Source: Rhizobacter sp. (lineage in GTDB: Bacteria; Pseudomonadota; Gammaproteobacteria; Burkholderiales; Burkholderiaceae_C). From it: a stretch of 12,789 nt of DNA. Shown piece after piece: positions 1 to 10,558 of the stretch. A model generated the notes under the pieces. The model did not search any database. It was not told the DNA's origin and worked only from the letters and a program-made list of their open reading frames with translations. Made by a program: the position numbers and the translations under genes. The DNA is taken from the NCBI GenBank assembly GCA_025351675.1, contig JANXVK010000196.1, positions 1-12,789 on the forward strand, read 5' to 3'. How positions within the stretch are numbered: the stretch's first letter is position 1; each line of letters starts with the position of its first letter.

Positions 1-285
1 CTTCATGAAGTTGTCCTGCAACGGATGGACCTCGTCGGCCGAGCGCTGAATGCCTTCGATGGTCGTGATGTCTGCGCCGTCGGCCTCGACCGCGAGCACC
101 AGGCACGAGTTGACCGGACGGCCGTTCATGATGACGGTGCAGGAGCCGCACTCACCGACGTCGCAGCCCTTCTTCGTGCCGGTCAGCGCGGCCTCGAGCC
201 GCAGCACGTCGAGCAGGCTGCGGTGGCAATCGACGGCGAGCTCGCGCGCCTCGGCATTGATGTTGACGTTGATGATTCGCTTCAT
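1..285 (-). CDS. [2Fe-2S]-binding small subunit of a xanthine dehydrogenase-family Mo-hydroxylase (partial, 3' end cut by window)
   Basis: The first 95 residues are visible; such subunits are usually about 150-170 residues, so the C-terminal half lies beyond the left edge. The product starts MKRIINVNINAEAREL and carries the plant-ferredoxin-type cluster motif GCDVGECGSCTV followed by a fourth cysteine in NSCL. The second, C-terminal [2Fe-2S] domain (CxxC...CxC) is not in the window. In this family the subunit relays electrons from the Mo-pterin centre to the FAD subunit. The start ATG overlaps the stop of the FAD-subunit gene as ATGA, which indicates translational coupling and one operon in the order FAD - FeS, with the Mo subunit expected next outside the window (CoxM-S-L type order). 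The substrate cannot be read from this subunit. Confidence 0.93.
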   Translation of the reverse strand, partial: MKRIINVNINAEARELAVDCHRSLLDVLRLEAALTGTKKGCDVGECGSCTVIMNGRPVNSCLVLAVEADGADITTIEGIQRSADEVHPLQDNFMK

Positions 286-1154
286 GTCGCTTGCTCCATC
301 GCGTTCTTCAACGCCTGTTCGATCGCGCGGCGCGTCAGCACGCCCACCATCGCGCGCCGGTAGTCGGCGCTGCCGCGCACGTCGCCGATCGGCCGGGACT
401 CGCTCAGTGCTGCCTGCGCTGCTTCCTGGATCAGCGCCGCGCCGAGCGGTTGGCCGCGCAACACCGATTCGGCCCGCCTCGCACGCAGCGGCGTCGGCGC
501 GACGGCGGCGAGCACGATGCGGATTTCGCCGCAGCGACCCGCATCGACCGTCAACGTCACCGCCACGCCGACCGTGGCGAGTTCCATCTCGACGCGCCGG
601 CCATGCTTGATGTAAGCCTTGCCGGTGTGCGCCGGCGGCACCGGCACGACGATGTGCGTCACCAGCTCGTCGGCGGCCAGCACGGTCTTGCCCGGGCCGG
701 TGCAGAAATCCTCGAGTGTGACCTCACGCCGGCCGTCCGGCCCGAGGACGTGCAGCACGGCTCCATCGGCGATCAACGGCGGCAGCGTGTCGGCCGACGG
801 CGAGGCGCGGCAGACGTTGCCGATCACGGTCGCGCGGTTGCGCACCTGGATCGACGCGAAGTGGGTCACGGCCTGGCACAAGCTGGCGTAGTGGCGTTGC
901 ACGACGGCCGAGGTCTCGACCGCCCGCGTCGTTGTCAGCGCGCCGATGTGCAGGCCGGCAGCGTCGAACCTCAGGTCGTCGAGGTCGAGTATTTTCTTGA
1001 TGTTGACGACATGCGCGGGGGTGCGGATGTGCTCCTTCATCTGCACCAGCAGATCGGTGCCGCCGGCGAGCACGGTGGCTTCGCCTCGGCAGCGGCGCAG
1101 CAGGGTCACGGCCTCGTCGAGCGTTGCCGGTTCGTGATAGTCGAAGCACCTCAT
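282..1154 (-). CDS. FAD-binding (medium) subunit of a xanthine dehydrogenase-family Mo-hydroxylase (CoxM/CutM/XdhB-like)
   Basis: The 290-residue product has the normal length and layout of CoxM-type subunits. The N-terminal FAD-binding half has the pyrophosphate-binding loop TVLAGGTDLL (about 28-36) and the second flavin loop ATVIGNVCRASPSAD (about 108-122). The C-terminal CO-dehydrogenase-flavoprotein domain includes a KHGRRVEMELATVGVA segment at about 183-198. Members pass electrons from the [2Fe-2S] subunit through FAD to NAD or another acceptor, normally in the cytoplasm; no signal peptide is seen. GAGGA (1164-1168) lies 9 nt before the start ATG, and the gene is the first of its operon behind the promoter element at 1216-1263. 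I see no 4Fe-4S insertion of the 4-hydroxybenzoyl-CoA reductase type. Family assignment is firm; substrate is open (xanthine, another N-heterocycle, an aldehyde or CO-like). Confidence 0.93.
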   Translation of the reverse strand: MRCFDYHEPATLDEAVTLLRRCRGEATVLAGGTDLLVQMKEHIRTPAHVVNIKKILDLDDLRFDAAGLHIGALTTTRAVETSAVVQRHYASLCQAVTHFASIQVRNRATVIGNVCRASPSADTLPPLIADGAVLHVLGPDGRREVTLEDFCTGPGKTVLAADELVTHIVVPVPPAHTGKAYIKHGRRVEMELATVGVAVTLTVDAGRCGEIRIVLAAVAPTPLRARRAESVLRGQPLGAALIQEAAQAALSESRPIGDVRGSADYRRAMVGVLTRRAIEQALKNAMEQAT

Positions 1155-1215
1155 GTCATGCGGTCCTCAAGGTGATGGATGGCTGCATGGAAGTCATGCT
1201 GGCAGCATCGGCATG

Positions 1216-1263
1216 ATCGGTAAACGACTGGAGTTATATATATTGATTGACTAATGCGATGAA
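1216..1263 (-). promoter_or_regulatory. Copy 1 of a shared promoter/operator element, upstream of the FAD/FeS operon
   Basis: This AT-rich island in the divergent region between the FAD-subunit gene and the LysR gene aligns without gaps to 6421-6468 at 34 of 48 positions. Invariant blocks are ATCGGTAAAC (1216-1225), TATATAT (1237-1243) and TGCGATGAA (1255-1263). Read on the minus strand it offers a promoter with -35-like TTCATC (1263-1258), a 17-nt spacer and -10-like TATATA (1240-1235). The GTTTACCGAT block then lies near the transcription start. It ends 61 nt before the FAD-subunit start codon. The promoter assignment is inferred; the repeat itself is directly seen. It may also govern the divergent LysR gene. 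Confidence 0.65.
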
Positions 1264-1332
1264 TAGCCTGGTTGCGGGAAAGCGTGAGGGCCGATCGCAT
1301 CGAGCCTCGCCTAAGCTCGGCACCCGATGAAT

Positions 1333-1338
1333 GAGGAG
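1333..1338 (+). promoter_or_regulatory. Shine-Dalgarno GAGGAG that decides the LysR start
   Basis: GAGGAG lies 6 nt before an in-frame TTG (1345), which is ideal spacing. The upstream ATG (1327) would place this motif inside the coding region and has no Shine-Dalgarno of its own. The downstream ATG (1357) is 18 nt away, which is too far. This favours a TTG start. Confidence 0.5.
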
Positions 1339-1344
1339 ATTTCA

Positions 1345-2259
1345 TTGCCAAGCCCGATGAATGTGACCTTGCGCCAGCTGCGGGCGTTTCTGGCGGTGGC
1401 GGTCGAGGGGCACTTCACACGCGCCGCGGACAAGCTGGATGTTTCGCAATCGACCATCAGCACCTTGATCCGTGAATTGGAGGGCAACCTCGGCCTGCGG
1501 CTGTTCGACCGGCACACGCGCGCGCTGCGCCTGACCCAGGCGGGCGAGGAGATCGTGCCGCTGGCCCGCAAGTCGCTGTCAGATCTCGACCACGCACTCG
1601 AGAACCTGAGTGAGCTGAAAGCACTCAGCCGCGGCCGCGTGGCCATCGCCGCGTCGTCGCTGCAGGCCGCGCTGATCCTGCCGCGTCTGATTCAGAGCTT
1701 CGCGAAGGAGCATCCGGGCATCGTCGTCACTGTCTACGACGTACCGCAACCGGAGGTGCTGGAACTGGTGCGGGCCGGCGAGGCCGACTTTGGCATTGGC
1801 ACCGAGTCCGGCAGCCGCCACGATCTTGCGACCCAGGTCATCGGCTCCGATACGTTCATCGCGCTGTTGCCGCCCGGTCACCCGCTCGGCAAGAAGGCCG
1901 AGTTGACGTGGCGCGACCTGGCACCGGTACCGATCATCGGTTCGCGGCCCGGCAACCCGCTGCGGGAGCAGCTGGACCTCGCGCTGGCACGCGAGGGCAT
2001 CACGATGACGCGCAGCCACGAGGTCTCGCTGCCGCTGACCATTGTCGGCATGGTCGAGGCCGGGATGGGCGTCGCGGTGATGACCACCACGGTGGCGAAG
2101 CTGGCCACTTCGTTCGGCCTGACGGTGAAAAAAGTCGGCCGGCCAGTGATCACGCGCGAGATCTCGCTGCTGTTTCACGCCGACCGCTCGCTGTCGCCGG
2201 CGGCGCAGAAATTTCGCGAGTTGCTCGTGCGGACCAAGTTCGCGGCGCCGCGCGAGTGA
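1345..2259 (+). CDS. LysR-type transcriptional regulator
   Basis: The product has about 304 residues from TTG 1345, or 310 from ATG 1327, or 300 from ATG 1357. The N-terminal winged helix-turn-helix is clear: LRQLRAFLAVAVEGHFTRAADKL, then the recognition helix VSQSTISTLIRELEGNLG and the wing LRLFDRHTRALRLTQAG. The following linker helix leads into a periplasmic-binding-protein-like effector domain (about residue 90 to the end; VAIAASSLQAALILPRLIQSF, then a second lobe ending near SLSPAAQKFRELL). Family members bind DNA as tetramers and respond to a small pathway metabolite. The gene is divergent from the FAD/FeS operon and convergent with the permease-IorAB operon, so it sits between the two operons that share the 48-bp element. 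It is the natural candidate regulator of both, which is inference. The start is uncertain, the family is not. Confidence 0.93.
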   Translation: MPSPMNVTLRQLRAFLAVAVEGHFTRAADKLDVSQSTISTLIRELEGNLGLRLFDRHTRALRLTQAGEEIVPLARKSLSDLDHALENLSELKALSRGRVAIAASSLQAALILPRLIQSFAKEHPGIVVTVYDVPQPEVLELVRAGEADFGIGTESGSRHDLATQVIGSDTFIALLPPGHPLGKKAELTWRDLAPVPIIGSRPGNPLREQLDLALAREGITMTRSHEVSLPLTIVGMVEAGMGVAVMTTTVAKLATSFGLTVKKVGRPVITREISLLFHADRSLSPAAQKFRELLVRTKFAAPRE

Positions 2260-2314: not shown

Positions 2315-4453
2315 CTACGCGAGCGAATAGCCGTGCCGGCTCAACGGCAGCGAGCGCAGTCGCTCGCCCGTCGCGGCGAAGATCGCGTTCGCCAGTGCCG
2401 GCGCGAACGGCGGAACACCTGACTCACCGACGCCACCGATCTTCGCGCCGCTCTCGATCAGTTCGCATTCGATGCGCGGCGTGTGTGCCAGATGCGGCAG
2501 CGGATAGTCGTGAAAGTTGGACTGCTGCACGCGCCCGTCGCGAATGGTGATCTCGCCGTTGAGCGTGGCCGCCAGGGCCCAAATCGTCGCGCCTTCGAGC
2601 TGGCGCTCGACGGTGGCCGGGTTGATGACGGTGCCGCTGTCGATCGCGCAGACCACGCGATGGATCTCGATCTTCTTGTCGCGCACCGACAGTTCCACGA
2701 CGCTGCCGCAAATCGAACCCCAAGCGTCCGACAACGCGATGCCCCGGTGCTGCCCGGTCCGGGCCGCGCCCCAGTCGGCGCGGCGGGCCAGCCGCCGCAG
2801 CAACTCGGCGTGGCGCGGTTGTTCGCGCAGCAGCGCGAGCCGGAACGCGAGCGGGTCCTGCCCCGCCCGGTGCGCCAGTTCATCGACGAAGCTCTCGAAG
2901 AAGAAGCAGTTCTGCGTGTAGCCCACGCCGCGCCAGAAGCCGACCGGCACCGCCGTGTTGAGCATGGCGTGGCGCACGGCGAAGTTCGGCAGCGCGTAGG
3001 GCACATCCACGGCGCCTTCGACCGACTTGGGGTCGACGCCGTCCTTCACGCGCGCGGGAAAATTGCGGATGTAGATCGACGAGCACGCCAGGCGCGCTTC
3101 GAGTGCCTGCACGCTGCCGCCCTCGCCGAGCACGGCGGCGAAGCGCGCCGCTGCGGCGGGTCGGTAGAAGTCGTGCTGAATGTCTTCTTCGCGCGACCAG
3201 ATCAGCTTCACCGGGCGCTTTGCCGCCTTCGACGCCGCAGCGGCCTGCATGAACACGTCGAACTCCTCGCGCCGGCCGAAGCCGCCGCCGACGAAGGTCG
3301 AGTGCACCACGATGCGGTCTTCGGGCAGACCAATCAGGGGTGCGAGCATGTGTGCGATCTCGCCGCACACCTGCGTCGGCCCCCAGATCTCGGCGCGGTC
3401 GTCGCGCACGTCGGCCGTGGCATTCATTGGCTCCATCGTTGCGTGCGCGAGGTACGGAACCTCGTACTCGGCCTCGACGCGTGCCGCGCCGCGGGCGAAC
3501 ACCGCCTCGGGGTCGCCGTTGCGCTTGGCCAGGGTGTTCGCCTCGGCCGCGGCCTTGCGATACGCGGCCATCAGTGCGTCACCCTGGGCCGCGGCGCCGG
3601 CGGGCAACGCCCACTCGGGCGTCAGGCGCGCCAAGCCCTGTTTCGCGGTCCAGTAGCTGTCCGCGAGTACGACCACCGCATCAGGGAGCGGCACCACCTG
3701 CGTCACCCCGCGCACCGCCAGCGCAGGTTTGACGTCGACGCGTGTCAACGTGCCGCCGAACACCGGGCACGCGGCGACCGTGCCGATCAGCATGCCGGGC
3801 ACCTTCACGTCGACGCCGAACGTCGCCGCGCCGCAGGTTTTCAGTGGAATGTCGAGCCGCGCGATCGGCCGGCCGATCAGCGTCCACTTCGATCGGTCCT
3901 TCAGCGTCACCTGAGCCGGTCGGGGCAGATGCGCGGCGCGCGGCGCGAGTTCACCGTAGCTCGACACACGGCCGGTCGGCTTGTGGGTGACAGCGCCGTT
4001 GCTCGCCTCGCATTCGGCGATCGGAGCCCCCCACGAATCGGCGGCCGCCTGCTTGAGCATTTCGCGCGCCGTCGCGCCGATGCGCCGCAACGGCTCGAAC
4101 GACCAGCGCGCAGACGTGCTGCTCGCGGTGGCCTGCACCTTGAACATGCGGTTGGCGTAGACCGGATCGGTCGGCGCGAGTTCGGCGCTGACGCGCCGCC
4201 AGTCGCACTCCAGTTCCTCGGCGATGAGCATCGGGGCGGACGTGTAGACACCCTGCCCCAACTCGGCCGACGGCACCATGATCACCACCGCGCCGTCGGG
4301 CGCGATCCGAAGCCAGGCATTGACGTCGTCTGGATCGCGCGGCGGCTGCCCCTGCGCGACCGCCACTGGCAGCCTGAAGCCGAGGACGAGGCCCGCACTC
4401 GCGGCGGCGCCGGCCTGCAGAAGACGGCGGCGATCAATCGTCAGCGCTTTCAT
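2315..4453 (-). CDS. IorB-like molybdopterin-binding catalytic subunit, Tat-exported (xanthine dehydrogenase / isoquinoline 1-oxidoreductase beta family)
   Basis: This 712-residue catalytic subunit of a two-subunit Mo-hydroxylase inserts water-derived oxygen into an N-heterocycle or aldehyde. It opens with a twin-arginine signal: DRRRLLQAG (7-15), a hydrophobic Ala/Gly/Leu stretch, and a likely cleavage site near AVAQG (31-35). Mo-cofactor motifs include SAELGQGVYTSAPMLIAEEL (62-81), GGGFGRRE (389-396), GFWRGVGYTQN (505-515) and GVGESGVPP (674-682). Glu677 is the expected catalytic base of the family. Length suits IorB-type proteins (roughly 700-780) rather than XdhB/CoxL. GAGGAGG (4459-4465) lies 5 nt before the ATG and overlaps the TGA of the preceding [2Fe-2S] gene. 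No cytochrome c or FAD partner is encoded beside it, so the electron acceptor is unknown. The purine link rests only on the permease. Confidence 0.9.
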   Translation of the reverse strand: MKALTIDRRRLLQAGAAASAGLVLGFRLPVAVAQGQPPRDPDDVNAWLRIAPDGAVVIMVPSAELGQGVYTSAPMLIAEELECDWRRVSAELAPTDPVYANRMFKVQATASSTSARWSFEPLRRIGATAREMLKQAAADSWGAPIAECEASNGAVTHKPTGRVSSYGELAPRAAHLPRPAQVTLKDRSKWTLIGRPIARLDIPLKTCGAATFGVDVKVPGMLIGTVAACPVFGGTLTRVDVKPALAVRGVTQVVPLPDAVVVLADSYWTAKQGLARLTPEWALPAGAAAQGDALMAAYRKAAAEANTLAKRNGDPEAVFARGAARVEAEYEVPYLAHATMEPMNATADVRDDRAEIWGPTQVCGEIAHMLAPLIGLPEDRIVVHSTFVGGGFGRREEFDVFMQAAAASKAAKRPVKLIWSREEDIQHDFYRPAAAARFAAVLGEGGSVQALEARLACSSIYIRNFPARVKDGVDPKSVEGAVDVPYALPNFAVRHAMLNTAVPVGFWRGVGYTQNCFFFESFVDELAHRAGQDPLAFRLALLREQPRHAELLRRLARRADWGAARTGQHRGIALSDAWGSICGSVVELSVRDKKIEIHRVVCAIDSGTVINPATVERQLEGATIWALAATLNGEITIRDGRVQQSNFHDYPLPHLAHTPRIECELIESGAKIGGVGESGVPPFAPALANAIFAATGERLRSLPLSRHGYSLA

Positions 4454-4463
4454 CGGTGCCTCC

Positions 4464-4916
4464 TCATGCGGCAGCGGCGGCGCGCTTGATCGCCAGCTCG
4501 ACCCGCGGATACGTGCCGCAGCGGCACACGTTCGTCATTGCGGCGGCGATGTCGGCGCTGCTCGGACGCTTGTTCTCCTTCAGCAGCGCCGCAGCGGCCA
4601 TGATCATGCCGGACTGGCAGTAGCCGCATTGCGGTACCTGCTCGGCGATCCAGGCCTGCTGCACCGGATGATCGTTGTGCGCGGACAGCCCCTCGATCGT
4701 GGTGATCTTCGCCCTCGCCGCGCTGCGCACCGGGGTGATGCACGAGCGCGCGGCTTTGCCGTCGATGTGGACCGTGCAGGCGCCGCACAGGCCGGCACCG
4801 CAGCCGAATTTGGTGCCGGTGTAGCCGAGAAGGTCACGCAGCACCCACAGCAGCGGCATGTCCGGATGGGCGTCGACCGACCGAACGGCGCCGTTGATGT
4901 TCAAGCGGAAGTTCAT
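4464..4916 (-). CDS. IorA-like [2Fe-2S] subunit of the two-subunit Mo-hydroxylase
   Basis: The 150-residue product has both [2Fe-2S] domains of the family. The plant-type cluster is Cys39, Cys44, Cys47 and Cys59 ([14 protein letters not shown] and ARSC). The all-helical C-terminal domain has Cys97, Cys100, Cys131 and Cys133 ([10 protein letters not shown] and [10 protein letters not shown]). It passes electrons from the Mo centre of the IorB-like partner to an external acceptor. It has no signal peptide and would have to be carried out by the Tat signal of the large subunit if the enzyme is periplasmic. I chose the ATG at 4916 because GAGGGG (4924-4929) lies 7 nt before it, and [20 protein letters not shown] is a typical family N-terminus. 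An in-frame ATG at 4988 would only add residues that overlap the permease gene. The Shine-Dalgarno overlaps the permease stop codon. Confidence 0.94.
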
Positions 4917-4927
4917 CAGGGGGCCCC

Positions 4928-6307
4928 TCAGTGTGCCGGCCGCTGCAGCGACGCGGCCAGCAGCGAAGCCGTCGGCCGATGACGCCACTGAAAGAGCGCG
5001 TTCAACAGCACCGCGGACAAAGTGCCGGTCAGGATGCCGTTGTGGAAGAAGCGCGCTGCCAAGTCGGGCAGCTGCGCGAAGAACCGGTCGCTGACCACCG
5101 GGATCATGCCGAAGGCGAGGCTGACGGCGACGACGTAGAGGTTGCCGCGGTTGCCCGCGAAGTCGACGGAGCCCAGGATCTTGACGCCGGTCGAGGCGAC
5201 CATGCCGAACATCACCAGACCGGCACCGCCGACCACCGCGTACGGAACCGCTGCCACCACGAACGAGAGTTTGGGCAGGCAGCCGAGCACGACCAGAATC
5301 ACGCCGGCCGCCGCCACCACCCAGCGGCTCTTGACGCCGGTGACCTGCACCAGCCCGACGTTCTGCGAGTACGACGTGTAGGTGAACGTGCCGAAGATGC
5401 CGCCGACGATGTTGCCCACGCCGTCGGCCCTCAGGCCACGCGCGAGATCGGCCGCGTCAAGCTTGCGACCGGTGATGTCGCCCAACGCCAGAAACAGGCC
5501 CAGCGATTCGATCATCATCACCACCATCACCAGGCACAGGGTGACGGTGGACATCAGGTCGAAGGTCGGCATGCCGAAGTGAAACGGCAGGATCACGCTG
5601 ACCCAGTCTGCATTCGCGACCCCGTCGAAATTCACCCGGCCCAAAGCGAACGCAAGGACGAAGCCGACGCACAGCCCCAGCAGCACGGCGACGTTCGCGA
5701 CAAAGCCTTTGAACAGCGCCGAGATCAACAGGATCGACACCAGCACGGAGCCGGCGATCGCCAAGTTGATCGGCGCGCCGTAGGCCGGGTTCGGGATCGG
5801 CCCCGCGGGGCCGGGCAGCATCGGCTGGCCGCCCGCAGCCCAGTTGATCCCTACCTTCATCAGCGAGACGCCGACCAGCAAGACCACGGTTCCCGTCACG
5901 ACGGGCGGAAACCAGCGAATCAGGCGGCTGATGTAGGGCGCCGCGAACAGCGTGAACAAGCCCGACCCGATGACGGCACCGAACACCGCCGGCATGCCCA
6001 AGCCCGGCGTGGCACCGGTGGCGATGATTGGCGGAATGGCGGTGAAGGCCACGCCCATCATCACCGGCAAACGGATGCCGACATTCCAGATGCCGATGCA
6101 CTGGATCAGCGTGACGATGCCACAGCAGAACAGGTCGGCGCTGATCAGCCACGCGATCTGATCTTTGGGTAGTTTCAGCGCGCCGCCGATGATCAAGGGC
6201 ACGGCGACGGCTCCGGCATACATCACCAAAACGTGCTGCAAACCGAGCGCGGCGAGCTTCGGGGGCGGGAGCACCTCGTCGATGGCGAGGTCTGCGTTGG
6301 TGTTCAT
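4928..6307 (-). CDS. NCS2-family nucleobase permease (xanthine/uracil/urate type)
   Basis: The product has 459 residues and many hydrophobic segments, consistent with the 14-helix NCS2 fold. It should import a nucleobase with a cation across the inner membrane. Visible family signatures are [16 protein letters not shown] in the first helix (Q24, H25), [11 protein letters not shown] (79-89), [15 protein letters not shown] (264-278, with Glu267) and the substrate-filter motif [16 protein letters not shown] (313-328, Gln315-Asn316). Gln-Asn there resembles xanthine/urate carriers such as XanQ and UapA; this is recalled family knowledge. The ATG at 6307 has GGAG 5 nt upstream. An in-frame ATG at 6391 would only add a Gly-Arg-Pro-Thr-rich tail encoded by a tandem repeat. 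It is first in an operon with the IorA/IorB-like genes, so it probably brings in their substrate or their product. Confidence 0.93.
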
Positions 6308-6358
6308 GCGGTCTCCGGTAGTTCGGGGCAGCTGCAATTGCTCGTCGGGCTCAGTGGC

Positions 6359-6388
6359 CCGGCCTGTTGGCCGGCCTGTTGGCCGGCC
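6359..6388. repeat. 12-bp tandem repeat (2.5 copies) in the permease leader
   Basis: CCGGCCTGTTGG is repeated perfectly at 6359-6370 and 6371-6382, then begins again with CCGGCC (6383-6388). The array lies between the promoter element (6421-6468) and the permease start (6307), so it would be in the 5' untranslated leader. GGCC palindromes in it can pair with one another. It may be neutral or may form a structured leader. Confidence 0.8.
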
Positions 6389-6420
6389 CATTGCAACTTC
6401 ACTTTCGCACCACGCCCTCT

Positions 6421-6468
6421 ATCGGTAAACCACGGATCGGCTATATATCGATCGGTTTCTGCGATGAA
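6421..6468 (-). promoter_or_regulatory. Copy 2 of the shared promoter/operator element, upstream of the permease-IorAB operon
   Basis: Same element as at 1216-1263, in the same orientation relative to its downstream gene. ATCGGTAAAC (6421-6430), TATATAT (6442-6448) and TGCGATGAA (6460-6468) are at the same offsets (0, 21, 39). On the minus strand the possible promoter is TTCATC (6468-6463), 17-nt spacer, TATAGC (6445-6440). It ends 113 nt before the permease ATG. The surrounding DNA is GC-rich, so the TATATAT stands out. Between 6503 and the end of sbcB at 6697 I see no gene or further clear signal. Confidence 0.65.
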
Positions 6469-6478
6469 CCGCGTGAAA

Positions 6479-6502
6479 CCCCGAGAAGCTTCGGGCTCGG
6501 GG
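6479..6502. terminator. 7-bp perfect dyad: possible sbcB terminator or regulator-binding dyad
   Basis: CCCCGAG (6479-6485) pairs with CTCGGGG (6496-6502) around a 10-nt loop. In the minus direction the stem is followed by only three T residues. It lies about 195 nt past the sbcB stop, so it could end sbcB transcription before the permease promoter. It is also about 10 nt upstream of the -35-like end of copy 2, where LysR-type proteins often bind. The sequence does not decide between these. Confidence 0.3.
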
Positions 6503-6696
6503 ATACCGGTGCTGGCAATCGCTCCACGCGACGCCAGTCGCAGCAACGTATCGCAGGCGTCAGGAAGCGGTCGTTCGCGAAAGTCGTTTCATTGACCACG
6601 CATCGCCTGTCACGCACGACAGTCCGCAGTCGGCGCACTCATTTGGCAACTCCGAGGAAAACGCCTCGCCGCGCGGGCGGGCGCAGCGGGAGACGC

Positions 6697-8121
6697 TCAG
6701 TCGCGCTCGGGTGCGATCTGCGTCGCGTAGTCGACCAGCGCGCCGAGGATGTCCTGGCCGCGCTCATCGGCCTCTTCGCCGAGCACGTCGATCTGCTCGA
6801 AAAAGGCTTCGAGCGTCAACCCGCCGCCAGCGCCGTCGTGCAGGCGGTGCGCGCAGTGGCCGAGCCACTGCGTCTGCTCGGCCGGGTTCAACGACTCGGG
6901 GAAGTTGCGCGCGCGGTAGCGGAAGAACAGCTCATCGAGCCGAGCATCGCTGAACACGGGGCGCTTCGCCGCGAGCTGCGCGCCGTCAAGCGTGCGCAGC
7001 TTCTGCAGCGTGCGGCGATCCTCGTTGCCGACGAAACCGCCGTACAGGTCTTCGTCGACGTCGGTCGCGCCCGCGCGCGCCGGCCGCTCGAAGATCGCGG
7101 GCCACATGCCGGCGAGCAGGCTCGCCTTCTGCGCGATCAGCTCGGCATGGCGCAGCGCCTGCGGAATGTCGACGCCCCATCTCAAAGCCATCGCATCGCT
7201 CAGCGTCTTCAGGTTGCCGATCACGATCGGCGACTTGCTGATGTGGATGGTCTTGATCGGCAACCGCGTCACGCCTTCGGGCAGCTCGCTGCTGCGCGTG
7301 AACATGCGGGTGCGGATCTCGTCGACGCCGAGCGTGAACAGCTCGCTCGGGTCGACCGCCAGATCCCACACGACGATCTCGTTCTTGTTCGTCGGATGCG
7401 GCGCGATCGGCCACACCAACGCGATGCAACCGCGCTCGGTGCCGTACATGCCCGAGATGTGCAGGAAGGGCTTGCCGACGCCCATCTCTTTGACGACCTC
7501 GTGTTTGCTGCGCAGCTTCAGGCAGAACTCCCACAGCCGCGGCTGGCGCGTCTTGATCAGGTTGGCCAGCGCGATCGTCGCGCGCACGTCCGACAGCGCA
7601 TCGTGCGCGGCCGCGTGCACGAGCTTGTTCGCGGCGGTCAGGTGTTCGAGCTTGAACGATGGTTTGCCGTCGTCGTGCACCGGCCACTCGATGCCTTCGG
7701 GGCGCAGCGCCCAAGTGGTGCGCACCACGTCGAGCAGATCCCAGCGGCCACACTCGTTCTGCCACTCGCGCGCATACGGGTCGATCAGGTTGCGCCAGAA
7801 CAGATGCCGCGTGACCTCGTCGTCGAACCGGATCGAGTTGTAGCCGACGCCGACCGTGCCGGGTGCTCCAAGCTGCTGCTCGATCGCGTCGGCGAAGCGG
7901 TGCTCGGGCACGCCCTGTTCGAGACAGCGCTGTGGCGTGATGCCGGTCAGCAGGCAGGCCTCGGGCTCGGGCAGAGAGTCGGGCGCGGGCTGGCAATACT
8001 GCATCAGCGGCGCGCCAATCTCGTTCAGATCGGCGTCGGTGCGCACGCCGGCAAACTGCGATGGCCGGTCGCGGCGCGGCACGCGGCCGAAGGTTTCGTA
8101 GTCGTGCCAGAAGAAGGTCAT
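6697..8121 (-). CDS. sbcB: Exodeoxyribonuclease I
   Basis: The 474-residue product is almost exactly the length of E. coli exonuclease I (475). It digests single-stranded DNA 3' to 5' and acts in recombination and mismatch repair in the cytoplasm. The DEDDh active site is complete: Asp7 and Glu9 in HDYETFG, Asp100 in RFDDEVTR, His173 and Asp178 in AHDALSDV. These match E. coli D15, E17, D108, H181 and D186 with a constant offset of 8. The later RWDLLDVVRTTWALRPEGI segment and the C-terminal YRARNFPESL also match the family. I chose ATG 8121 because family similarity begins there. It has no Shine-Dalgarno, and the reading frame stays open upstream through a GC-rich repeat to ATG 8199 or 8208, which could add 26 or 29 residues. 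It stands alone, divergent from serC. Confidence 0.96.
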   Translation of the reverse strand: MTFFWHDYETFGRVPRRDRPSQFAGVRTDADLNEIGAPLMQYCQPAPDSLPEPEACLLTGITPQRCLEQGVPEHRFADAIEQQLGAPGTVGVGYNSIRFDDEVTRHLFWRNLIDPYAREWQNECGRWDLLDVVRTTWALRPEGIEWPVHDDGKPSFKLEHLTAANKLVHAAAHDALSDVRATIALANLIKTRQPRLWEFCLKLRSKHEVVKEMGVGKPFLHISGMYGTERGCIALVWPIAPHPTNKNEIVVWDLAVDPSELFTLGVDEIRTRMFTRSSELPEGVTRLPIKTIHISKSPIVIGNLKTLSDAMALRWGVDIPQALRHAELIAQKASLLAGMWPAIFERPARAGATDVDEDLYGGFVGNEDRRTLQKLRTLDGAQLAAKRPVFSDARLDELFFRYRARNFPESLNPAEQTQWLGHCAHRLHDGAGGGLTLEAFFEQIDVLGEEADERGQDILGALVDYATQIAPERD

Positions 8122-9375: not shown

Positions 9376-10558
9376 CGCCGGGCGCTTCCAAGTCCTGGTG
9401 CTGAACCAGATCTCGGCCAACGGCCTGAAGCGGCTGCCGGCCGACCGCTATGCGGTCGGCAAGGATGTGGCCGCGCCGGATGCAGTGCTCGTGCGTTCGG
9501 CCGACATGCACACGCTCGCGATCGCACCCAGCGTCGTCGCAATCGCGCGCGCCGGCGCCGGCACCAACAACATCCCGGTCAAGGCGATGAGCGAGCGTGG
9601 CGTGCCGGTCTTCAACGCGCCGGGCGCGAACGCCAACGCGGTGAAAGAACTCGTGCTCGCCGCGATGCTGATGACCGCGCGCAACCTCGCGCCGGCGCTG
9701 CGCTTCGTCGCCGGGCTCGATGCCGCATCGCCCCACATGGGGAAGGCCGTCGAGGACGGCAAGAAAGCTTTCGCCGGCTTCGAGCTCGCCGGCCACACGC
9801 TGGGCATCGTCGGCCTCGGCAAGGTCGGCTGTCTGGTCGCCGATGCGGCGATCAAGCTCGGCATGGACGTCCACGGCTTTGACCCGCACATCACGGTCGA
9901 CGCCGCGTGGAGCCTGCCCGCGCAAGTGAAGAAGGCCGCGAGCGTCGCCGACGTGCTGAAGAACGCCGACTTCGTGACCCTGCACGTGCCGCTGATCGAC
10001 GCGACCCGCGATCTCGTCAACGCCGACAACCTCGGTCTGATGCGCGCCGGCGCGGTGCTGATGAATTTTTCGCGCGAAGGCGTGGTGAACGAGGCCGCCG
10101 TGCTCGCCGCGCTCGACGCGAAGAAACTCGCCTGGTATGCCTGTGACTTTCCGAGCCCCGCCGCGCATGCCCACCCGCAGGTGCTCGCGCTGCCGCACCT
10201 CGGCGCCTCCACCGCGGAGGCGGAAGAGAACTGCGCGATCATGGTCGTCGACCAGCTGCGTGACTATCTGGAGCACGGCAACGTGACCAACGCGGTCAAC
10301 TTTCCGCACGTCAGCATGGCGCGCGAATCGGCGCACCGCATCGCGATCGCAAACGCGAACGTGCCGAACATGCTCGGTCAGATCTCGACCGCGATGGCCG
10401 CCGCCGGGCTGAACATCCACAACATGGTCAACAAGTCGCGCGGCGACATGGCCTACACGCTGGTCGATGTCGACAGCCCGGTCGCGCCGCAGGTGCTCGA
10501 CGCGCTGCGTGCGATCGATGGCGTGCTCTCGGTGCGCCACCTGCCGAATCCCGGCTGA
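9368..10558 (+). CDS. serA: D-3-phosphoglycerate dehydrogenase, short ACT-domain form
   Basis: The 396-residue product oxidises 3-phosphoglycerate to 3-phosphohydroxypyruvate with NAD, the first step of serine synthesis, supplying SerC. The Rossmann motif GIVGLGKVG is at 146-154, with Asp172 after the next strand favouring NAD. Substrate-side residues include Arg236 ([10 protein letters not shown]) and His277 (PHLGAST). The C-terminal part from about 324 ([19 protein letters not shown]) is an ACT domain, the usual serine-sensing module. The large intervening domain of mycobacterial-type enzymes is absent. The segment where most relatives have FxxEP reads [11 protein letters not shown], so the usual catalytic Glu seems missing. 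GAGG (9358-9361) is 6 nt upstream of the ATG, inside the end of serC; ATGGCTGA holds both the start and the serC stop. Confidence 0.94.

Follow-up and report, generated by a model that had tools for sequence, protein, structure and literature searches.

The window, a stretch of 12,789 nucleotides from the draft genome of a Rhizobacter sp. (3.64 Mb, 675 contigs, 81.7% complete), contains a LysR-family regulator gene lying between the genes of two different Mo-hydroxylases, one of which is preceded by a permease gene, as listed below.

1..285, minus strand: 2Fe-2S subunit of a three-subunit Mo-hydroxylase, truncated at the contig end, with its presumed remainder, the Mo subunit and CobW on contig C351 (L127)
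282..1154, minus strand: FAD subunit of the three-subunit Mo-hydroxylase, assigned by domain and family profiles
1327..2259, plus strand: LysR-family regulator (HTH_1, LysR_substrate), perhaps starting at 1357, where conservation among 29 relatives sets in
2315..4453, minus strand: IorB-like Mo subunit with a twin-arginine-like leader (RRRLLQ), judged by eye
4464..4916, minus strand: IorA-like 2Fe-2S subunit, start placed by eye (its open frame extends to 4988)
4928..6307, minus strand: NCS2 permease of the xanthine permease family, start from the gene caller (its open frame extends to 6391)

Because their ends share 8 bases, contig C351 presumably adjoins position 1 of the window; it carries the remainder of an FeS gene, a Mo subunit that shares 77% identity with its counterpart in the related locus L043, and the CobW-family gene. 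In their domain composition (FAD, FeS, Mo, IorA and IorB), the two enzymes resembled XdhABC-like and IorAB-like Mo-hydroxylases. Unlike named xanthine dehydrogenase subunits, however, the FAD subunit (224.5 vs. 287) and the Mo subunit on C351 (662.4 vs. 780) scored below the curated NCBIfam equivalog cutoffs for xanthine dehydrogenase, and thus the substrate could not be read from the family name. The permease exceeded the cutoff of TIGR03173 (534.9 vs. 414.15), which places it in the NCS2 xanthine permease family and does not imply the transported substrate. A second IorAB-like pair, whose IorB is 42% identical to that of the window, was observed on contig C106 (L157:2798-5439), a 6.1-kb contig without the element described below.

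The initial annotation had pointed out a 48-bp stretch that recurs in the same orientation upstream of both leftward operons, and this observation was confirmed. Positions 1216-1263 and 6421-6468 were identical at 34 of 48 bases without any gap, with three blocks at offsets 0, 21 and 39 in both copies. No other ungapped 48-base alignment of the intergenic regions 1155-1326 and 6308-6696 exceeded this value, whereas 2000 pairs of dinucleotide-preserving shuffles gave best matches of 22 to 29. The flanks of the two copies were dissimilar, as had been claimed, both upstream (19/60 bases) and beyond column 68 (10/60 bases). The full element, at about 68 bp, was longer than the stretch first noted; its columns 49-68 were identical at just 8 of 20 bases between the window copies, yet they hold the -10 positions conserved in relatives.

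The element was rare in the draft genome. The string ATCGGTAAAC occurred four times, namely in the two window copies, on C166 inside a LysR-family gene with surroundings unlike the element, and on C125, where it is part of a third element copy in the same orientation relative to its gene. This third copy heads two Amidohydro_2 genes (Ami1 and Ami2) and a UbiD-family decarboxylase gene, which is truncated at the contig end and scored 291.9 against TIGR00148 (cutoff, 244.85). A 48-base pattern of the columns common to the two window copies, with up to 3 mismatches allowed, matched only those two copies in the genome. The pattern ATYG-N11-CRAT-WTAT-N12-GTTTACC, built from the columns common to all three copies, was found at the three places only, no further match appearing at 1-3 mismatches and none for the backward control of the pattern in the same genome. 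The 68-column consensus, again allowing 3 mismatches, likewise matched the same three copies and had no hit across 398 further genomes of the order, a result that speaks for specificity rather than conservation. The predicted parts of the two window copies, in which column n corresponds to position 1264-n in element A and 6469-n in element B, are as follows.

1196..1263, minus strand: element A, putative full promoter/operator heading the FAD-FeS-Mo-CobW operon, divergent from lysR
1243..1263, minus strand: putative LysR-type box of A, TTCAT-N11-ATCAA (columns 1-21), an imperfect dyad
1219..1224, minus strand: predicted -35 of A, TTTACC (columns 40-45, conserved)
1196..1201, minus strand: predicted -10 of A, CAGCAT (columns 63-68, conserved), preceded by TGC (columns 60-62)
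6401..6468, minus strand: element B, putative full promoter/operator heading the permease-IorA-IorB operon
6448..6468, minus strand: putative LysR-type box of B, TTCAT-N11-ATCGA, an imperfect dyad
6424..6429, minus strand: predicted -35 of B, TTTACC, in conserved columns
6401..6406, minus strand: predicted -10 of B, GAAAGT, preceded by TGC and weaker than that of A

To follow the element across genomes, 80 loci of relatives were found with an alignment of 29 LysR proteins, and the 40 whose LysR was at least 48% identical were treated as orthologs and the other 40 as paralogs. A strict 42-base pattern with at most 1 mismatch, applied to 299 genomes of the family, matched only in the own genome and in G235, where the site lies upstream of an Ami1 ortholog (91% identity). 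A LysR match at E ≤ 1e-75 was present in 9 of the 299 genomes, including both with a strict element match; the remaining seven had no strict match, and the four examined for weaker sites had such sites only (L170, L042, L078 and L052), the other three of the seven being G104, G209 and G286. Here L042, L078 and L052 were taken as contigs of G280, G131 and G180, and are hence not independent of the family genomes.

A weight matrix over columns 4-45, derived from four founding sites, was then run with a cutoff score of at least 12 over the 40 paralog loci and 40 ortholog loci, from which L041 was left out as contig C182 of G235 and to which L170 was added; L041 was kept in the site alignment, the column counts and the gene counts. 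The matrix gave 26 matches in the ortholog loci (755,711 bp) as against 2 in the paralog loci (776,870 bp), and 24 of the 26 were intergenic although 88% of the DNA is coding. Diverged copies were thus found upstream of orthologous operons, as expected from the initial annotation: sites preceded the FAD operon in L053, L046, L042, L045, L043, L078 and L050, the permease gene in L047 and Ami1 in L043, and the remaining ones adjoined LysR, facing the gene divergent from it. Two matches counted against full specificity, namely the intergenic match at L067:17134, away from the cluster, and a site with a score of 24.6 in the paralog locus L085 (:9944, Paraburkholderia phosphatilytica), located beside a LysR gene of its own (37% identity), where perhaps a related regulator uses a similar box. 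Judged from these sequence comparisons, the repeated stretch would be a real control element, rare and conserved, of an ordinary kind.

Column counts were taken from 30 aligned sites, comprising the four founders and 26 picked from the matrix matches, some of which scored below 12; six Rhizobiales sites were aligned beside them and excluded from the counts. T5 and A17 were present in all 30 sites, and in the separate comparison of the founders with the 24 intergenic sites they stood in 4/4 and 23/24, a conservation that is partly due to selection, since both were matrix columns. T24 was found in 28 sites, A25 and T26 in all 30, and T40 and T41 in 29 each. Columns 1-3 and 46-68 lay outside the matrix and were therefore not used in site choice, and here T60 (25/30), G61 (26/30), A64 (27/30), A67 (25/30) and T68 (27/30) stood out. 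Of the 24 intergenic sites, 17 had the motif TG..A..AT of columns 60-68 in register, and no other shift from -12 to +13 gave it in more than 1 of 24. Since TGnnAnnAT stands in register and T40/T41 are conserved, we read TTTACC as a -35, separated by 17 nt from an extended -10. If this reading of the two blocks is right, the centre of the box falls near -65, where the boxes of LysR-type transcriptional regulators (LTTRs) usually sit (PMC5603801). The dyad was imperfect, as columns 3 and 19 paired in 0/4 founding sites and 14/24 others, and an alternative register two bases rightward, ATYG-N11-CRAT, fitted the founders about as well; the sites of the orthologs appear to favour TTCAT-N11-ATSRA. 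In Rhizobiales, a lower-scoring and more symmetric box, in several cases TTCAT-N11-ATGAA, was found between LysR and the permease gene (L061-L077, around position 9950).

From the three copies, their rarity and positions, the conserved columns and the gene set kept in relatives, we infer, with a probability of roughly 0.85, that each copy is an LTTR-activated promoter, and that the LysR protein of 1327-2259 binds all copies and activates three operons for the breakdown of a purine- or pteridine-like ring. Each copy would consist, from upstream to downstream, of the TTCAT-N11-ATSRA regulator box, whose centre would lie some 65 bp upstream of the presumed start, an A/T-rich stretch (TWTAT) close to the expected second (activation) LTTR site, and then the -35 TTTACC, the 17-nt spacer and the extended -10 TGnnAnnAT, with a presumed start around column 75 (about 1189 and 6394). 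The LysR protein, expressed from its divergent gene, would bind all copies and activate transcription in the presence of an inducer. The targets would be the FAD-FeS-Mo-CobW operon for the three-subunit Mo-hydroxylase, the NCS2 permease-IorA-IorB operon for uptake and a two-subunit Mo-hydroxylase that is probably exported, and the Ami1-Ami2-UbiD operon on C125 for two amidohydrolases and a decarboxylase. Several features typical of LTTR control were found: the LysR-family gene is divergent from a target, with element A lying between 1327-2259 and the FAD gene; T-N11-A stands inside an interrupted dyad with imperfect outer arm pairs; and the element is kept upstream of orthologous operons.

Two readings concern the layout of the element itself. 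The initial annotation had taken TTCATC and TATATA or TATAGC as -35 and -10 with a 17-nt spacer, and GTTTACCGAT as an operator around the start point. The distance between TTCATC and TATATA is indeed right in both window copies, and TAT at columns 24-26 is conserved. However, TTCAT forms a dyad with an ATGAA/ATCAA arm that follows after 11 bases, and would be the left arm of a T-N11-A box that is kept in relatives. The conserved TTTACC and TGnnAnnAT, moreover, lie as far apart as a -35 and an extended -10 should. In a sigma-70 scan for TTGACA/TATAAT with at least 9/12 matches, no promoter was detected in 1100-1400 and 6250-6700, and the TTCATC/TATATA pair was not listed either; such poor -35/-10 hexamers count against our own layout too, but would fit an activated promoter. 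We thus regard the earlier layout as very unlikely, and its placing of the start point was also given up, because GTTTACC appears to carry the -35 and the predicted -10 ends 20 bases beyond the 48-bp stretch. Riboswitches often control purine and molybdenum-enzyme genes, which speaks for a leader RNA or riboswitch upstream of these operons. The conserved blocks, however, resemble a promoter with an upstream dyad, and no Rfam family reached its curated cutoff in the window, L121 or L126 (in L053 a single tRNA did); a riboswitch was thus rejected as barely conceivable.

As for the meaning of the repetition, two similar stretches lying 5.2 kb apart on one contig could be a dispersed repeat or a duplication remnant without regulatory significance. 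The genome scan, which might have revealed many scattered copies, yielded just three, each heading an operon in the same orientation, and the flanks are unrelated and diverged copies precede orthologous operons, so that this explanation was also rejected as next to impossible. A further alternative retains the same promoter architecture and assigns it to a regulator other than the LysR protein of 1327-2259. The assignment was made from sequence, and the own genome contains 24 LysR-family matches to this protein. Nevertheless, element A separates lysR from the operon divergent from it, many relatives have a copy adjoining the orthologous lysR, and every family genome with a strict match also has a close LysR relative; another binder therefore seems improbable. 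The LysR protein of 1327-2259 thus remains the favoured regulator, in line with the initial annotation, which had proposed that both leftward operons share an element, probably controlled by the LysR protein encoded between them. Its further proposal, that two Mo-hydroxylases and a permease are placed under one control, agrees with the shared element, but needs to be widened and qualified, since the regulon apparently includes a third operon on another contig and IorAB looks accessory.

Gene content around the 40 orthologs gave a more complete picture of the regulon; the counts cover the DNA around each ortholog and some misses reflect short contigs, and genes were called with a codon-usage caller, so that their starts are approximate. 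The FAD, FeS and Mo subunits were each present in 34/40 loci, CobW in 32/40, UbiD and Ami1 in 28/40 each, Ami2 in 27/40 and the permease in 24/40. This conserved set spans Burkholderiales, Rhizobiales and Paracoccus, and the operons that stand on separate contigs in the own genome are joined in relatives into a single cluster, which also includes the LysR gene and the FAD/FeS/Mo hydroxylase. Carriers of the cluster include Comamonas testosteroni ATCC 11996 (L073) and Janthinobacterium sp. CG3 (L053). A gene of the flavoprotein (UbiX) family was found in the clusters L042, L052 and L058, with a score identifying UbiX in L042, and its presence fits a working UbiD. The LysR system nevertheless looks patchy, since a search of nine other genomes of the same genus gave no LysR match above 36% identity.

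No close relative of IorB was detected in the 80 loci, where the best match (about 26% identity) was to the other Mo subunit, and IorAB thus looks like an accessory part of the regulon. A search of the 299 family genomes gave IorB matches at E ≤ 1e-100 in 195, but among the matches listed only the window's own protein exceeded 48% identity, and no orthologous promoter was gained. A protein search returned IorB relatives with 65-84% identity, among them proteins labelled Herbaspirillum, Comamonas or Cupriavidus; the sources name relatives of IorB isoquinoline 1-oxidoreductase beta subunit. A LysR relative (P0110, 59%) and an IorB relative (P0128, 73%) shared the same figure of 42512 bases for the longest contig, which hints at linkage elsewhere.

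Ami1 (L121:1228-2145) and Ami2 (L121:2198-3112) are paired paralogs with orthologs in the loci of relatives. All 26 Ami2 sequences have the metal-binding-type motif THLHP, at whose site 20 of 25 Ami1 sequences have SCYP, the other 5 being called from a later start so that the site is not shown. Ami1 may, by these motifs, be a non-catalytic or re-purposed partner of Ami2.

The substrate of the regulon is probably a purine- or pteridine-like ring, as far as the gene set indicates. A pteridine is suggested by a deaminase, present in 11/40 ortholog loci, that resembles PDB 2PAJ (E 1.8e-161 for the protein of L043), which we take to be isoxanthopterin deaminase. On the other side, this deaminase is absent from 29/40 ortholog loci within the DNA examined around LysR, the 80 loci showed no close IorB relative, and in contrast to those 11 clusters the own draft genome (82% complete) gave no isoxanthopterin deaminase ortholog, the best match (38% identity) scoring as 8-oxoguanine deaminase. 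According to PMC5270733, Hall et al. (2010), also cited in PMC11121863, found an isoxanthopterin deaminase in Sargasso Sea DNA. Ordinary purine breakdown is a possible pathway as well. Among the top-ranking relatives of UbiD with a solved structure are decarboxylases of heteroaromatic acids.

A tentative proposal, which we consider rather less probable than its negation, is that the three operons encode a long-orphan bacterial route from oxidised pterins to purines. McNutt is said to have worked out a pterin-to-purine reaction sequence in Alcaligenes faecalis in the 1960s, and the assignment of its steps to the regulon genes is our own. In relatives, the deaminase would convert isoxanthopterin to 7-oxolumazine, which the three-subunit Mo-hydroxylase would oxidise to tetraoxopteridine; Ami1/Ami2 would open the cyclic oxamide of tetraoxopteridine and reclose it to xanthine-8-carboxylate, and UbiD would decarboxylate the latter to xanthine, which would enter urate breakdown. 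The exported IorAB would oxidise the substrate, the NCS2 permease would bring it into the cell, and the LysR protein would sense a pathway intermediate. To our knowledge, the ring-contraction and decarboxylation steps are known as enzyme activities only, and if the pteridine reading is true, the regulon would provide candidate genes for both, together with a promoter that reports the inducer.

Irrespective of the substrate, the element would tie three operons, located here on separate contigs, into one regulon, and brings into view a gene set composed of a Mo-hydroxylase, paired amidohydrolases, UbiD with UbiX, and a purine-type permease. A literature search, which covered few subscription journals, found no report on this gene set or regulon. 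The regulon is unusual and probably uncharacterised, whereas the control element itself would be a new member of the known LTTR kind. Among known systems, the pnp promoters of Pseudomonas sp. WBC-3 (PMC5603801) are similar in having a T-N11-A box near -65 and an activation region near -35, a regulator gene near its target and several operons under one regulator. They differ in their arms (GTT/AAC there, TTCAT/ATSRA here) and in the genes controlled, the inducer being probably purine- or pteridine-like here, where the layout is predicted from sequence.

In two relatives, genes for a PuuD-like urate oxidase, a second NCS2 permease, a GntR-type protein and PuuE were observed to adjoin the LysR cluster (L042:11193-18612 and L047:11678-16529), and L042 also has an 8-oxoguanine deaminase gene beside this cluster.
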